Shown: positions 57-18,380 of the stretch, one piece after another | Position numbering within the stretch: the first letter of the stretch is position 1 | Layout of the letters: the number at the start of each line of letters is the position of its first letter | Assembly (NCBI GenBank): GCA_017610545.1 | Contig: JAFCBV010000001.1 | Location: forward strand, 1-18,380 | Length of the DNA stretch: 18,380 bases | Direction: 5' to 3' | From: Candidatus Nanohalarchaeota archaeon | GTDB lineage: Archaea > EX4484-52 > B79-G9 | Program-made: the position numbers and the translations under genes | The notes under the pieces: generated by a model | What the model was told of the DNA's origin: nothing | The model's input: the letters and a program-made list of their open reading frames with translations, nothing else | Databases searched by the model: none

Positions 57-1244
57 TTAAAGAACATTCAACCCTTTTTTTGTAAGCAAAAACGTATTTT
101 CTATCCTGATTCCGAACTTGTTTTTGAAATAGATTGCAGGCTCAAGCGCAAAGACCATATTTTCCTGAAAGACTGTGTTTTTGTACGGCGCCCTCTCTGA
201 GATACGCGGATACTCATGGACATCAAGCCCGACCCCGTGCCCAAGGCCGTGAAAATTGGAAAAACTTTCTTTTTTGTATCCTGCTTTCACAAGAAAGTCT
301 TTTGCATATTTATGTATCTCAAGGCAGGTCTTTCCGACAACAACAAAATCCAAAAGCCCGTCAACAAGGCGCGCAACCGTATCATGCGCCTGAAGCATTT
401 CTTTGTCCTTGCATAAAATATGTGTTCTCGTGAAATCCGAATTATAGAAATCCTTTCGGGCGCCAATGTCCGACATCAGGATTTGGCTGTATTTCTGGTT
501 GCATGCAAAATAATGTATGTTTGCAGAATTAGCATCACCTGCAACAATCGGGGTAAAAGCAGGCTCTGCGTTGTTTAAGGCAAACTCCTGTTTGACCTTC
601 TTGATGAGCGCACCCTCATCAAAAAGCCGCATCTTTTTTTGCACCACATCAAGAGCCTTTTTTGTAATGCCTGCGGCCAAGCGCATTTTTGATATTTCTT
701 CCTTGTCTTTTATGCCTCTTATTTCAAGCATGTTTTTTGAAATGTCGCAGAAAACAGGCCTTTTTAGTTTCCCCCGGAGTTTGTTCCACTGGTTAAACGA
801 AAAGCCGGTGTCAATGCCAATCCGCCGCATGTGCCTTTTATTCAAAAACGCATGTATCTTTTCCTTGCGCGCGTCTACAACATCAAGCGCGCACTCTTTT
901 TCAGCGCGCAGCACGTCTGCTGTAAACAATACCGCATCTTTTTTTGTTACAAGAACCGCATGAGACCAGACATCAAAAAACCCACTAAGATAATAAGTGT
1001 TTTCAGAGGAAAGGTCATTTAATGACTCACCTGAAAAAAGAAGTATTGCATCAAGCTTTTTTTTATCAAGAAATTTTCTGGTGTTCTCAATTCTTTCAGG
1101 ATTTACAATCGTTGAAACTCTGCCCTTCAGGGCGGAGTTACCGATTGGAAAGCTTGAAACCGAACCAATCAAACCCCGTCCTTTAGGGCGGGGTCGCATA
1201 GAGGTTTCATGATCTTGTTTTTTCATCAGAGACATTCCCCGCAT
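57..1244 (-). CDS. M24 family metallopeptidase (Xaa-Pro aminopeptidase/prolidase-like) with an N-terminal repeat-encoded insert
   Basis: Cytoplasmic metallopeptidase of the pita-bread fold, expected to remove or cleave next to N-terminal residues, often beside proline. The dinuclear metal ligands of M24 are all visible: D259 and D270 (DIGA...SDFTRT), H336 (HGLGHGVG), E368 (ALEPAIYF) and E382 (RIENTF). H343 (DVHEYP) also fits the family. Residues about 48-175 form the creatinase-like N-terminal domain and about 180-395 the catalytic domain. Residues 12-47 (HETS to STIV) are encoded by a mobile repeat and have no M24 counterpart; the usual sequence resumes at NPERIENTRKFL. Three in-frame ATGs (1244, 1235, 1226) are possible starts. 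GGGG at 1237-1240 sits about 10 nt before the ATG at 1226, which may be the true start. The gene begins about 20 nt after the radical SAM stop, so the two are probably co-transcribed. Substrate cannot be told from sequence. Confidence 0.88.
   Translation of the reverse strand: MRGMSLMKKQDHETSMRPRPKGRGLIGSVSSFPIGNSALKGRVSTIVNPERIENTRKFLDKKKLDAILLFSGESLNDLSSENTYYLSGFFDVWSHAVLVTKKDAVLFTADVLRAEKECALDVVDARKEKIHAFLNKRHMRRIGIDTGFSFNQWNKLRGKLKRPVFCDISKNMLEIRGIKDKEEISKMRLAAGITKKALDVVQKKMRLFDEGALIKKVKQEFALNNAEPAFTPIVAGDANSANIHYFACNQKYSQILMSDIGARKDFYNSDFTRTHILCKDKEMLQAHDTVARLVDGLLDFVVVGKTCLEIHKYAKDFLVKAGYKKESFSNFHGLGHGVGLDVHEYPRISERAPYKNTVFQENMVFALEPAIYFKNKFGIRIENTFLLTKKGLNVL
1105..1214 (-). mobile_element. 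Hairpin repeat, copy 1 (IS200/IS605-like MITE/PATE candidate), in frame inside the M24 gene
   Basis: A 110-bp repeat matching the copies at 2071-2231 and 14447-14604. On the minus strand it runs from GATCATGAAACC to ACGATTGT. It carries two subterminal palindromes, CCCCGCCCTAAAGGACGGGG and CTCCGCCCTGAAGGGCAGAG, which resemble the terminal hairpins of IS200/IS605 elements. It lacks about 51 bp (17 codons) present in copy 2, between the SVSS and PTGN codons, and the loss keeps the reading frame. No transposase is present, and no target duplication is evident, as expected for that family. Its identity as a PATE-type element is inference. Confidence 0.75.
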
Positions 1245-1262: not shown

Positions 1263-2738
1263 TTACATTTTGTCGCGCAGGGTTTTTATAAGCACATCAA
1301 GCATTTTTCGGTTGTAGAGGGCGCCATCCTTATTTGATAAATCATCATATGTCTTTTTATCAAAGCAGGGAATAAGATTTACACCAAGTTCACGGCATGC
1401 GCAAGAAAGCGCAATGAAGCTTTCCGAGTCTGGTTTGAAGTATGCAAAGACCCGTTTGTATTTATGGCGCGAAAGATATTTTTGTAGCCGCTCTTTTGTC
1501 ACATCAATATACTCTTTTTTGATTTTTTTGTTTTCCTGCCACTCAGGCCAGTCGTAGTTGGCAAAAGGATACTTTGCCTCAAACTCGCGCGGAATAACGC
1601 CGGGATTTGATATCATAAGCTGGTGCAGTTCATTGTATTGCGGGAGCGAGACAAGGCGCCTGAGTATCTCTTTATGCGTTCTTGACATAGAATATGGTTT
1701 TTTGAAACTACAGGGGAGAAAAAGGGCATATTTTTTTGTTTTTGGCGTTTCATAAAAACGGGCGATGTAGTCCTGCCAAACAGCATAGTGCGGGTGGACG
1801 AGATTTTCTTTAGTTGCCCCAATCAGCCGTTCGTGTTTTGCAAAGCGCGGATAGTCAAGGTAATCATCAAAGTACAACTCGATTTTTTTGTTTTGTCTAA
1901 ATGCACGCGTAATTTTTTCGAAGCATTTCTTATCAAGAGGATTCCAGGCGCCGGAAAGCCACATATCAAACAACGGCGCAGGCGCGCGCGCAAACGTATT
2001 GATTACAGCAACAAGGTCGCTGTACTTAAGCGCAAACGCAACAGATGCAGAAAGCGACTTTTTGATATCTACAACCGTTGTAACTCCATCATTTCGGGGG
2101 GAGTTGCCGGTTGGAGAGTTTTGAGCTGTGCTCGAAAGCTTCGAACGAAGCGAATGCGAAGTGAGATGACTTGAAACCGAACCAATTAAACTCCGTCCTT
2201 TAGGGCGGGGTCGTACAGAGGTTTCATGATCCGCCACATAAGGTGGATTTACCAAAAGATAAGTCCTTACATAAAAACCAGCGTCTTTCAAACGTTGCGC
2301 AGCGTTTACAGAATCCTGTACGCAGAACCCCTTGCGCATTTTTTTTAGAATCGCGTCATCAGCGACTTCAAGGCCCAGGCAAAAGTAAATTTTTGGTTTT
2401 GCGTCTCCGAAAGCATCGTTTTCTTTTTTGAGCTGTGCAAGGCTTTTTTCAGTTATATATTCGGGCCTGCATTCAACAAAAAGCTCTTTTATGCCTTTTT
2501 TTGCACAAACTTCAAGGAGACATTTCATGAATTTTTCTGAAATTTGAGCTTCATCCAAAAAGCTGCCTGAGTTGAAATATTTCAGCCGCGTAGTGCCGGG
2601 CACAATTTTTCTCTCAAGATTGCTCTTTAGGCGAATAAAATCAGGTTCACACACACGTTCTTTTTTGCTGAAACTGCAAAAAATGCATTTATTCCATGAA
2701 CATCGGCCACATTCCTCAATAATCACAGATTCTTTCAT
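1263..2738 (-). CDS. Radical SAM archaeosine synthase: RaSEA-like domain fused to an ArcS-type lysine-transferase core
   Basis: Residues 1-170 and 224-300 read as the RaSEA (MJ1487-type) radical SAM family. They show C10/C13/C18/C21 near the N-terminus for the 4Fe-4S cluster, then YFNSGSFLDE (54-63), ELFVECRPEYITE (85-97), LGLEVADDAI, KGF and YLLVNPPY (160-167). Residues 341-355 (PCSFKKPYSMSRTH) match PC-X3-KPY-X2-S-X2-H, the signature of archaeosine synthase ArcS, followed by the ArcS-like LMISNPGVIPREFE (374-387). ArcS attaches lysine to preQ0-tRNA and RaSEA cleaves the adduct to archaeosine; normally they are separate subunits. The TGT-like and PUA parts of full ArcS are absent. Residues 171-223 come from a mobile repeat inserted in frame, apparently in a loop after NPPYVAD. 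The gene is divergent from tgtA across 50 bp, which supports the pathway. Start is ATG at 2738 with a weak GAGATG upstream. Family match is firm; joint activity is inferred. Confidence 0.8.
   Translation of the reverse strand: MKESVIIEECGRCSWNKCIFCSFSKKERVCEPDFIRLKSNLERKIVPGTTRLKYFNSGSFLDEAQISEKFMKCLLEVCAKKGIKELFVECRPEYITEKSLAQLKKENDAFGDAKPKIYFCLGLEVADDAILKKMRKGFCVQDSVNAAQRLKDAGFYVRTYLLVNPPYVADHETSVRPRPKGRSLIGSVSSHLTSHSLRSKLSSTAQNSPTGNSPRNDGVTTVVDIKKSLSASVAFALKYSDLVAVINTFARAPAPLFDMWLSGAWNPLDKKCFEKITRAFRQNKKIELYFDDYLDYPRFAKHERLIGATKENLVHPHYAVWQDYIARFYETPKTKKYALFLPCSFKKPYSMSRTHKEILRRLVSLPQYNELHQLMISNPGVIPREFEAKYPFANYDWPEWQENKKIKKEYIDVTKERLQKYLSRHKYKRVFAYFKPDSESFIALSCACRELGVNLIPCFDKKTYDDLSNKDGALYNRKMLDVLIKTLRDKM
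2071..2231 (-). mobile_element. Hairpin repeat, copy 2 (IS200/IS605-like MITE/PATE candidate), in frame inside the RaSEA-ArcS gene
   Basis: A 161-bp copy with the same ends as copy 1. The palindrome near 2192-2211 (CCCCGCCCTAAAGGACGGAG on the minus strand) is well formed; the other, AACTCC...GGAGTT at 2091-2107, is partly decayed. The central part holds overlapping inverted repeats around CGAAAGCTTCG. The minus-strand frame is open throughout and adds 53 residues (HETS to TTVV). On the + strand all three copies follow a Y-rich flank (TTT, TCT or TTT) before ACAA/GCAA. Confidence 0.75.
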
Positions 2739-2756
2739 GACATCTCTTCTAAAGTG

Positions 2757-2768
2757 AATAATATAATA
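2757..2768. promoter_or_regulatory. Shared bidirectional TATA for raSEA-arcS and tgtA
   Basis: AATAATATAATA sits at the centre of the 50-bp gap between the divergent ATGs at 2738 and 2789. It is 19-30 bp from each start, so both transcripts would be leaderless or nearly so. The + side also carries AGTTC-AACTC-AACTC directly before the ATG. Confidence 0.55.
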
Positions 2769-2788
2769 CTTTTAGTTCAACTCAACTC

Positions 2789-4480
2789 ATGTTTGAAATA
2801 CTTGAGCGCGATGCTGCAGGGCGGATAGGGCGTTGGTCTTTCGGCGGTCATAAGATTACAACCCCCGAAATCGCAATTGTTATTAATCCAAACAGGCTGA
2901 CAATTGAGCCAAAGGATCTGCAGAAAGAGTTTGGTGCCAAAATCATAATTACAAATGCGTACATAATAAAGCGCTCAGACACATTCAAAGATATTTCTTC
3001 ACGCGGCCTTCACAAGCACTTTAAGTGGACGGGCCCTATCTACACAGACTCAGGGACGTACCAGATGCACTCACGAGGGCACGTACAGATACGCCCGGAA
3101 GAGACCCTAAACATCCAAAAAGCAATAGGCTCTGATATTATAACCCCCCTTGACGTATTTACAGAACCATCAAGTTCACATAAGGATGCACTTGATGCCG
3201 TGAACAAGACAGCACAACGCGTGAACATGGCGCGTGAACACGTGAAAGAGCAGCAGCTTGTTGGGCCCATACAGGGGGGTCTGTATTCGGACCTTAGAAA
3301 GCGGTCTGCAGAAGCCACAGTCAAGGCAAACCCAGATGTGTTTGCCATCGGAGGAATAGTGCCTTTGATGGAGCAATATCGTTTTCGGGAACTTATTGAA
3401 GTAATTATCGCATGCAAGAGCGCCATTCCGTCAAACAGGCCGGTTCACGCCTTCGGGGCAGGACACCCAATGGTGTTCTCACTTCTTGTTGCTTGCGGTG
3501 TGGATATTTTTGACAGCGCAGCATATGCCCTTTATGCCCGGGATGGGCGATATATGACACCATACGGTACCCTCAAGGTAGATGGGCTTATAGATCTCCC
3601 CTGTGAATGTCCTGTTTGTTCTTCACATACACCACGTGAACTTGACGTTAACTTGATCGCGCGCCATAACCTCTATGTTACCTTTGCTGAAATAAGGCGC
3701 ATACATCAGGCAATCAGGGCCGGAAGGCTGTGGAACCTCGTGGAGCACAGGGCACACACAAATCCTGCGCTTTATCAGGCATACAAGACAATGGTTTCAA
3801 AATACACGTTCTTTGAAAAAAAAGAATGCCTGACAAAAAAACAACCGTTTTTGTATTTTGAAAAAGCAAGCTTGCGTAACCCCTATGTACGCAGGGCAAT
3901 TAACCGCGCAGCAAAAATCAAGAGCAAGAAGCGCTTTTTATGGTACGGTAAAAAAATACCGGATGGCTTATGCATACGCCACCCGTTTTCATCTTCGATT
4001 CCGGTAGGTGAACAAAACAAGACCTTTTCATACACCGAGCCGCGTGAACTTGTACTACGCGCACTGCAATTTCAGTATGGTGAAAAAGCAAGTCTCATAT
4101 TATCAAAAAACAGCCGCATGGAGGTCTCAAAAAAGACAGGCAGGGTACGTCGTGCCTTCCTGGGAGATGATTTGCTTGGAACAATAAGGGCAAATGACGG
4201 TGTTTTTGTGCCAACCGTTTTTGGGGCAAAGAAAATAATTTCGAAAACCGGAAACGACTATTCTGTTATGATTTCGGACGACGCCGTGCCTTTTGCAAAA
4301 AACGGAAAAAGCGTTTTCTCAAAATTTGTTGTTTCGGCAGGCAGGAAAATACGGCCTCTTGATGAGGTTTTTGTTGTTGATTCAAAGAAAAATGTTATTG
4401 CATGCGGCACCGCGTTTTTAAATTCAATAGAGATGCATGAGTTCACAAGCGGAATTGCTGTCAAGGTACGGCACTCATGA
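2789..4480 (+). CDS. tgtA: Archaeosine tRNA-guanine(15) transglycosylase (ArcTGT)
   Basis: Exchanges guanine-15 in the tRNA D-loop for preQ0, the first tRNA-level step of archaeosine synthesis. The 563-residue length fits full ArcTGT (about 580). Visible: the base-binding region DSGTYQ (D87), IQGG (161-164), AIGG (186-189), the nucleophile region FDSAAYALYA with D242, and a complete zinc site C272-x-C274-x2-C277-x2-H280. The middle holds the archaeal-specific C1/C2 region, and about 487-561 is a C-terminal PUA RNA-binding domain (PFAKNGKSVF...AVKVRH). This zinc site and the nucleophile separate it from the degenerate TGT-like part of ArcS. It is divergent from the RaSEA-ArcS fusion with a shared TATA, so the two archaeosine genes may be co-regulated. 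Its TGA abuts the TGA of the converging OB-fold gene (TCATGA at 4475-4480). The start follows the TATA by about 21 bp. Confidence 0.95.
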   Translation: MFEILERDAAGRIGRWSFGGHKITTPEIAIVINPNRLTIEPKDLQKEFGAKIIITNAYIIKRSDTFKDISSRGLHKHFKWTGPIYTDSGTYQMHSRGHVQIRPEETLNIQKAIGSDIITPLDVFTEPSSSHKDALDAVNKTAQRVNMAREHVKEQQLVGPIQGGLYSDLRKRSAEATVKANPDVFAIGGIVPLMEQYRFRELIEVIIACKSAIPSNRPVHAFGAGHPMVFSLLVACGVDIFDSAAYALYARDGRYMTPYGTLKVDGLIDLPCECPVCSSHTPRELDVNLIARHNLYVTFAEIRRIHQAIRAGRLWNLVEHRAHTNPALYQAYKTMVSKYTFFEKKECLTKKQPFLYFEKASLRNPYVRRAINRAAKIKSKKRFLWYGKKIPDGLCIRHPFSSSIPVGEQNKTFSYTEPRELVLRALQFQYGEKASLILSKNSRMEVSKKTGRVRRAFLGDDLLGTIRANDGVFVPTVFGAKKIISKTGNDYSVMISDDAVPFAKNGKSVFSKFVVSAGRKIRPLDEVFVVDSKKNVIACGTAFLNSIEMHEFTSGIAVKVRHS

Positions 4481-14282: not shown

Positions 14283-14446
14283 AGAAAAGTAAGATTATTC
14301 GAACCGTCATGCTGTCCTGTGACAACAAAGGTTTAAAAACGAATTCTGTAATGGAAATAACATGATTTAACAGTTAACGCCCGCAAAGCAAAAGGTGGTT
14401 TGCGCGTGTAACTACTTTGATTATGGGTTTGTGAATATAAATATTT

Positions 14447-14604
14447 GCAACCGTTGTAACTCCATCATTTAGAAGTGGGTTGCCGGTTGGAGCGTTTTGA
14501 GCTGTGCTCGAAAGCATCGAACGAAGAAAAGGCGAAGTGAGATGACTTGAAACTGAACCAAACAAACCTGTCCTAGAGGACGGGTCGCATGGATGTTTCA
14601 TGAT
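14447..14604 (-). mobile_element. Hairpin repeat, copy 3, intergenic
   Basis: A 158-bp copy. Its central 70 bp is about 93% identical to copy 2 by eye, from TTGCCGGTTGGAG to GATGACTTGAAAC. The GC hairpin on the left of the minus strand is altered (CCCGTCCTCTAGGACAGG) and is 2 bp shorter than in copy 2, which shifts the frame there. An 81-codon frame runs through it, but I see no gene context; this looks like an unconstrained, partly decayed copy. Confidence 0.75.
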
Positions 14605-17597: not shown

Positions 17598-18380
17598 ATG
17601 CCACACAGCTTTTTTGAGCGATTTTTCCCTGGATTTGTAACAAAGGACGACTTGAAGGAGTCTCAAATAGTTGCATCTGGCGAGATTTCGGTACTTAGAC
17701 AGTCAATTCTTAACGAGCAAAAACATGTTGACAAAAATCTTCACATTTTAGCCACAAAACTAGGCGAAATAGAAGGAAAACTTGATTCTTTTTCTATGGA
17801 AGGCACACCACCTGCACCGAATCGGGATTTTGAGACACTCACGCGCATTACAGTCCAAAACTATGAGGATTTGAAGAAAGAGCGCGAAAAAACAGCCGAA
17901 ATTGAGAAAACGCTTTCAAAGGTCTTATCCTGCATGGATATTGACTCAACTCAACTAAACTCAACTAAACTGACTCAACTAAACTCAGTAAACTCAACTA
18001 AACTCAACCAAAATCAACTAAACTCAACTCTTGTCGAAAACAAAGGTATGACTTCCATGACAAGCCATGATGACTATGACAATTCATTTGAGGGTCGCGG
18101 TAGCTCAATTATGCCAGAATTTGTCGTGAGCACAAAGTTCAAATTGACTCAGGGTCATTATTCCGCCCTTTTCGTATTGTACAACATCCAGGCCGATGCC
18201 CCTGAAAGGGCTGTTTCAATAAGGACGATTGTAAAAGAGATATATGGGCCGAAAGCAGGGCATTCAAAAGAGTCGTTTTTATCAAGAATAATAAGAGAAC
18301 TTGCTAAAAACGAGCTTGTTGTTAAGGGTCCAAGAGGCAGGACAACGCGCGTATATCTGTCTAAAGAAGGAATTGCATTT
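17598..18380 (+). CDS. Winged-helix protein with coiled-coil region and repetitive linker (3' end outside window)
   Basis: Open from ATG 17598 to the window end, 261 codons, no stop seen. Residues 1-66 (MPHSFFERFFPGFVTKDDL...) and 84-113 are charged and helical, probably coiled coil. Residues 116-144 are a low-complexity linker built on a (Q/K)LNST pentapeptide encoded by a 5-bp DNA repeat. Residues about 180-261 form a winged helix: FKLTQGHYSALFVLYNIQ, then SIRTIVKEIYG, SFLSRIIRELAKNELVVKG, and a wing GRTTRVYLSKEG. This suggests a DNA-binding regulator held by a flexible linker to a self-association domain. No ribosome site is visible; the TATA at 17561-17572 implies a leaderless message. 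I do not recognise the family of the N-terminal part. Confidence 0.7.
   Translation, partial: MPHSFFERFFPGFVTKDDLKESQIVASGEISVLRQSILNEQKHVDKNLHILATKLGEIEGKLDSFSMEGTPPAPNRDFETLTRITVQNYEDLKKEREKTAEIEKTLSKVLSCMDIDSTQLNSTKLTQLNSVNSTKLNQNQLNSTLVENKGMTSMTSHDDYDNSFEGRGSSIMPEFVVSTKFKLTQGHYSALFVLYNIQADAPERAVSIRTIVKEIYGPKAGHSKESFLSRIIRELAKNELVVKGPRGRTTRVYLSKEGIAF
17943..18030 (+). repeat. 5-bp microsatellite (AACTN), about 17 units, inside a coding region
   Basis: Alternating AACTC and AACTA units with a few 4-bp or altered units. Because 5 is not a multiple of 3, the repeat is read in all three phases and yields the LNST-type pentapeptide. The frame downstream, which encodes the winged helix, is intact in this sequence. 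Confidence 0.85.

Follow-up and report, generated by a model that had tools for sequence, protein, structure and literature searches.

The fused gene and its two halves

Our analysis concerns a gene on the minus strand of an 18,380-nucleotide stretch of DNA, hereafter the window (positions 1 to 18,380 of contig JAFCBV010000001.1, assembly GCA_017610545.1, Candidatus Nanohalarchaeota archaeon), and a dispersed repeat that has entered this gene. The original prediction had read the gene as a single-chain fusion of RaSEA, a radical S-adenosylmethionine (SAM) protein, with the core of ArcS, and Pfam and NCBIfam profiles, fold comparison and trees all bore this out. The gene is a genuine fusion of a RaSEA-like radical SAM barrel and an ArcS core (DUF5591), and its parts are laid out as follows.

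1263..2738, minus strand: fused RaSEA-like/ArcS-core gene, 491 amino acids plus stop (open reading frame and profile matches)
1857..2738, minus strand: radical SAM barrel, from residue 1 to roughly 294 when the insertion is counted (Radical_SAM and TIGR01210; border approximate)
1263..1844, minus strand: ArcS core, residues about 299-491 (profiles and fold; DUF5591 match at 1404-1778)
2676..2702, minus strand: cluster motif C13-X4-C18-X2-C21 (motif scan, alignment)
1674..1715, minus strand: ArcS signature PC-X3-KPY-X2-S-X2-H, residues 342-355 (motif scan)

When the 491-residue protein was compared with Pfam, Radical_SAM (PF04055) matched residues 12-172 above its cut-off (E 7.5e-9) and DUF5591 (PF17884) matched residues 321-445 (E 1.1e-21; 77.7 bits, the cut-off being 26). 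The profile search of both halves that the original prediction had proposed as a check gave the same order in NCBIfam, though below the curated cut-offs: RaSEA (TIGR01210) matched residues 5-172 only (E 3.4e-23), and the ArcS models NF040592 and NF053620 matched residues 304-443 and 299-439 (E 5.2e-24 and 2.2e-23, respectively), each family being covered over part of its length only. The RaSEA-type motifs NSGSFLDE (residue 56), ECRPEYITE (89) and LLVNPPY (161), as well as the ArcS signature, were found where they had been predicted, and a further ArcS motif, LMISNPGVIPREFE, is present at residue 374. A cysteine cluster predicted at residues 10-21 held for C13, C18 and C21, which form the CX4CX2C motif, and failed for C10, which is variable in a 13-row alignment and was rejected as a cluster ligand. 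The fused protein therefore has what defines the radical SAM part of RaSEA, namely CX(3-9)CX2C together with a barrel; among 20 canonical RaSEA proteins the spacing ranges from CX3 to CX9, followed by CX2C. In fold comparison, the barrel (model residues 1-240 of an orthologue free of the insertion) matched radical SAM enzymes, with a queuine lyase as the closest solved fold, and the ArcS core matched AF0587 (2q07). Alignments of 60 homologues, picked for spread from 121 proteins, showed the CX4CX2C spacing in 59 and the exact ArcS signature in 57, and the protein of the window (P0001) deviates at 2 of the 73 columns that are at least 90% conserved in the other 59.

Recurrence of the joined form in archaea

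This gene is no isolated case: the two halves are commonly joined in related archaea. A protein search returned 216 relatives; precomputed annotation places both Pfam domains in 112 of the 120 listed, and a direct profile scan found both in all 60 members of the alignments. The source names of the fused homologues listed are Nanohaloarchaeota, Aenigmarchaeota, Micrarchaeota, Nanoarchaeota and one Asgard record. In the host phylum, DUF5591 scores above the cut-off in 25 of 34 genomes and always in a barrel-bearing open reading frame (ORF), that of G029 being cut by contig ends. Among 257 archaeal genomes with a completeness of 80% or more, both profiles fall within one ORF in at least 43, from at least 20 family groups; this count combines two profile listings, the TIGR01210 search being limited to E 1e-12, and G006 and G029, whose genes lie at contig ends, are placed from the phylum survey. 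TIGR01210 exceeds its curated cut-off in none of the fused genomes, as compared with 94 of the 257 overall. That the fusion is unique to this gene is ruled out by the 216 homologues and by this recurrence. A search of a genome-contig collection with P0001 returned one bacterial locus only, at 26% identity. No description of a RaSEA-ArcS fusion was found in the open-access literature searched (PMC8204110 included).

Trees were built with 28 of the fused proteins. In the barrel tree, a single branch divides the 28 fused from 20 separate sequences (Shimodaira-Hasegawa-like approximate likelihood ratio test, 99). The tree of the cores sets 20 ArcS cores from separate proteins against a group that holds the 28 fused ones and one more separate protein, a 219-residue core of G055 with a long branch and an unsure placement. 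Because this separate core falls among the fused cores, a single origin of the ArcS-core half is not shown. A RaSEA-type gene lies upstream of it on the same strand (L116, G055 C48:6722-8529), and this tandem resembles the minimal pair in an unfused form, arranged as an operon. G055 also has a DUF5591 match in an ORF of 559 residues, and each genome of the family group f33 (G062, G102, G140, G157, G174, G242, G259) has a long ArcS and, besides it, an ORF of 233-335 residues that also matches DUF5591. RaSEA matches were also seen within open frames of 3013 and 3441 residues (G135 C1:279024-279947 and G170 C1:1572268-1572501), the length being 357-370 residues in four congeners.

A second check proposed earlier, for a separate arcS or raSEA elsewhere in the host genome, found none in 953,128 bases on 184 contigs that are 82.65% complete. 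The other candidates were rejected, one having 10.2 bits at C53:10505 and one having 38.1 bits on C163, in a 537-residue ORF of Elp3 size.

A candidate single-chain archaeosine synthase next to arcTGT

The gene divergent to the fused gene belongs to the archaeosine pathway.

2789..4480, plus strand: complete arcTGT gene, PUA included, for tRNA-guanine(15) transglycosylase (above the TIGR00432 cut-off with E 6e-140; Pfam TGT, TGT_C2 and PUA)
2739..2788, no strand: A+T-rich gap of 50 bp that parts the divergent genes and presumably serves as promoter region (sequence; promoter role inferred)

Besides the window, 10 of the 28 loci examined from relatives show this head-to-head arrangement, the majority of these loci being covered with about 1.5 kb of flank. 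The window has no tRNA and, at the gathering score, no Rfam match. According to the accessible part of the work on Thermococcus kodakarensis (PMC11298593), ArcTGT installs preQ0 at tRNA position 15, ArcS adds lysine and RaSEA turns preQ0-Lys into archaeosine, and ArcS and RaSEA form a complex without which lysine transfer does not occur. Because the ArcS of T. kodakarensis needs the RaSEA complex for lysine transfer, the fused chain is best read as a one-chain archaeosine synthase. We consider it quite probable that the product is an archaeosine synthase reduced to a single minimal chain, which acts after arcTGT in the pathway and takes the place of the ArcS-RaSEA complex found in other archaea. 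The neighbouring arcTGT would place preQ0 at tRNA position 15, the C-terminal ArcS core would join lysine to the preQ0 nitrile, and the N-terminal radical SAM barrel would then cleave the lysine adduct to give the archaeosine amidine. The coupling of lysine addition and radical cleavage in one chain is well motivated by analogy with the known complex; what we infer from the sequence is that the two reactions take place, that tRNA is the substrate and that the copy bearing the insertion is active.

Several observations weigh against such a synthase. As had been predicted, the fused protein has no Pfam match to the TGT-like or PUA parts with which full-length ArcS binds RNA; this absence does not set it apart from all ArcS, since ArcS proteins of 306-325 residues are present in other archaeal genomes. 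The C-terminal cysteine module is also missing: the TIGR01210 match of fused proteins stops at profile positions 180-246 of 313, and while canonical RaSEA proteins carry CxxC in 16 and CxC in 18 of 20 cases, none of the 60 fused proteins has both (CxxC alone in 2, CxC in 3). With the RNA-binding parts and the CxxC...CxC module absent, the chemistry of the fused enzyme may differ. By the curated cut-offs the protein is neither RaSEA (82.4 bits against 212.15 for TIGR01210) nor full ArcS (82.7 and 84.5 bits against whole-protein cut-offs of 440 and 600). To these must be added the one homologue of 60 without the cluster motif, the three that deviate from the ArcS signature, the barrel match of G103, counted among the fused genomes, which runs through two stops, and the uncertain G055 core. 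Moreover, the ArcS of Methanocaldococcus jannaschii reportedly takes other nitrogen donors and no lysine, as far as the accessible text tells (PMC11298593). Finally, the best QueC match in the host genome reaches 25.8 bits and none is strong; in the phylum, strong matches (E under 1e-50) occur in 3 of 34 genomes although 25 have fused genes. Given so few strong QueC matches, preQ0 is probably imported or produced via another route.

The scarcity of QueC also bears on an alternative, that the fused enzyme, having lost its RNA-binding domains, takes as substrate a 7-deazaguanine in the form of a free base, a nucleoside or a short RNA instead of folded tRNA and serves a salvage route. Besides the lack of TGT-like and PUA parts, this idea draws on the reported ability of T. 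kodakarensis ArcS to transfer lysine onto the preQ0 nucleoside (accessible text of PMC11298593) and on the queuine lyase that is closest in fold to the barrel, a free-base enzyme by its title. A common barrel fold tells little about substrate, however, and the adjoining arcTGT already delivers preQ0 within tRNA; according to the same source, ArcTGT reportedly neither exchanges preQ0-Lys in tRNA nor supports insertion of the finished base. We regard the salvage route as improbable and retain the single-chain archaeosine synthase.

The nearest known systems share parts of this design. RaSEA, the partner of ArcS, has the radical SAM barrel, the cluster cysteines and NSGSFLDE-like and GLE motifs in common with the fused form, whereas the latter scores below cut-off, lacks the CxxC...CxC module, occupies its own tree branch and is joined to an ArcS core. 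ArcS and the fused form share the PC-X3-KPY-X2-S-X2-H and SNPGVIPRE motifs and the AF0587/2q07 fold, although the fused form is without TGT-like and PUA parts and its divergent core falls below the NCBIfam cut-offs. In the T. kodakarensis complex, the same two activities are needed jointly, as described in the accessible text (PMC11298593), two proteins there corresponding to one chain here. Altogether, the observation behind the original prediction is confirmed and its overall interpretation partly supported; it had overlooked both the missing cysteine module and a 54-residue insertion made by a repeat.

A dispersed palindromic repeat within reading frames

Three copies of this repeat lie in the window.

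2067..2228, minus strand: in-frame palindromic-repeat insertion of 162 bp in the fused gene, residues 171-224 (repeat copies; missing in orthologues)
1101..1213, minus strand: second copy, read in frame near the N-terminus of a PepQ-like ORF (57-1244) (95% to the 113-nucleotide consensus)
14441..14604, minus strand: third copy, long form with inner cassette, outside long ORFs (repeat match)

Residues 171-224 of the fused protein are absent from P0002, which is otherwise 91% identical, and from all 21 readable orthologues (26 relatives' loci were tried, of which 5 fell outside the motif filter); the edges of the insertion are ambiguous by 3 bases, GAT standing on both sides. The copy is of the long form, with an inner cassette of about 51 bp as in other copies. 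In the AlphaFold model, residues 171-220 are predicted to be disordered and the whole protein has a predicted template modelling score (pTM) of 0.85. The insertion is probably a disordered and neutral peptide in the loop behind the barrel strand YLLVNPPY, its position relative to the active site being deduced from secondary structure. A functional domain at residues 171-224 was rejected in view of the repeat copies and the predicted disorder. At the same site, P0005 (470 residues) has a different stretch of about 26 residues that starts with NHEN and may represent another repeat family lodged where insertions are tolerated, and P0021 (510 residues) has a long insertion behind the first helix region that is missing in its alignment neighbours.

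The copy of the window gave 34 matches in this genome and the 113-nucleotide consensus gave 38; copies lie, for example, in G000 on C171, C27, C92, C43 and other contigs. The repeat was matched in 8 of the 34 phylum genomes, seven of which, the host included, belong to one family. Its consensus is predicted to form a pair of neighbouring hairpins (z -4.68 relative to shuffled sequences), and in 12 near-full, hand-chosen copies pairing is kept by changes on both sides at 16 of the 34 predicted pairs. Only one of the six consensus frames is open, HETSMRPRPKGRGLIGSVSSFPTGNSALKDGVSTVVN, and all in-frame copies read use it, the reading having covered the retrieved loci, a subset of the repeat matches. 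No clear target-site duplication was recognised by eye: (N)AT flanks both sides, and the triplets agree in some copies only. The repeat peptide had no tblastn match in a plasmid collection, phages and Escherichia coli lying outside that search. Some copies are split after consensus position 23 (23/24) with foreign sequence between (G000 C102:1471-1640 and C168:9626-9735), for which nested insertions or exchangeable inner cassettes are possible readings. The window also holds, at 17934-18034, a tandem 10-bp repeat that is ACTCAACTAA-like, with seven 28-nucleotide copies in register.

Unrelated genes carry the repeat in frame. The PheT copy adds 37 residues in the B5 domain and is missing in five relatives (L140-L144); that of an amine-oxidase-like gene follows directly after the likely start and is common to a second species of the genus. 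N-terminal copies were found in a T2SSE-type ATPase and the PepQ-like neighbour, and C-terminal ones in cytidylate kinase (G005) and a ribosomal L18 protein (G007). The copies of the fused gene and of PheT are clearly internal, and the terminal ones could be extensions, their starts or stops being uncertain.

These genes help to judge whether the fused family is an archaeosine synthase of which the inserted copy is inactive, the insertion having been tolerated after loss of function. A disordered stretch of 54 residues next to a barrel strand, missing from every readable orthologue, is what such decay might look like; on the other hand, all 491 codons are open, only the two conserved columns mentioned above have changed, the fold is retained in the AlphaFold model, and in-frame copies also occur in PheT, which must work, and in the amine-oxidase-like gene, whose codons outside the insertion are strongly constrained. 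Inactivity of this copy thus seems unlikely to us. Mis-joining of repeat-bearing contigs might also be invoked for the fusion or the insertion, since repeats break assemblies and this one consists of 184 contigs. Nevertheless, the fusion was found again in many other genomes and protein records, the insertion is precisely in frame with orthologous sequence flanking both sides, and the repeat is present in other genes, one in-frame copy being shared with a second species; we give such an artefact hardly any credence.

A comparable behaviour is known from the Rickettsia palindromic elements (RPEs), dispersed elements that add a conserved peptide in frame to unrelated genes, as described in the accessible text of PMC10969869. 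Like them, the archaeal repeat is dispersed, about 110-160 bp long, palindromic, multi-copy and in frame in unrelated genes; unlike them, it has an archaeal host and two tandem hairpins with inner cassettes, the likeness being one of behaviour. No archaeal counterpart of RPEs was found in the literature searched. We lean towards the view that a small symbiont-type archaeal family has its own RPE equivalent, which would be a first archaeal case. Here a two-hairpin repeat with a single open frame would lengthen functioning housekeeping proteins by some 37-54 residues; PheT would be one of them, and another a single-chain archaeosine synthase of DPANN type that lacks the ArcS RNA-binding domains and the second cysteine site of RaSEA. 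Two results count against this view. In the amine-oxidase-like gene, the nonsynonymous and synonymous rates are dN 0.31 and dS 0.19 over the 33 codons of the insertion, compared with dN 0.05 and dS 0.43 over the remaining 482, and the insertion, though open, is apparently neutral and without constraint at the protein level. Furthermore, among 26 places read, six (five insertions) are in frame in ORFs of at least 395 residues and one lies in the 5' part of a 359-residue frame; the others fall in short ORFs or none, gene insertion being the minority.

If the fused chain works, the chemistry would require neither the TGT-like and PUA parts that ArcS has elsewhere nor the cysteine module at the C-terminus of RaSEA, and the chain would offer a compact target for the study of a tRNA modification whose two steps are otherwise known from a complex of two proteins. 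Of these findings, the repeat family surprises more than the fusion. It suggests that proteins encoded by reduced archaeal genomes are made longer by selfish DNA that leaves the genes intact, as described for Rickettsia, and its filled and empty sites allow what the added peptides do to be tested.
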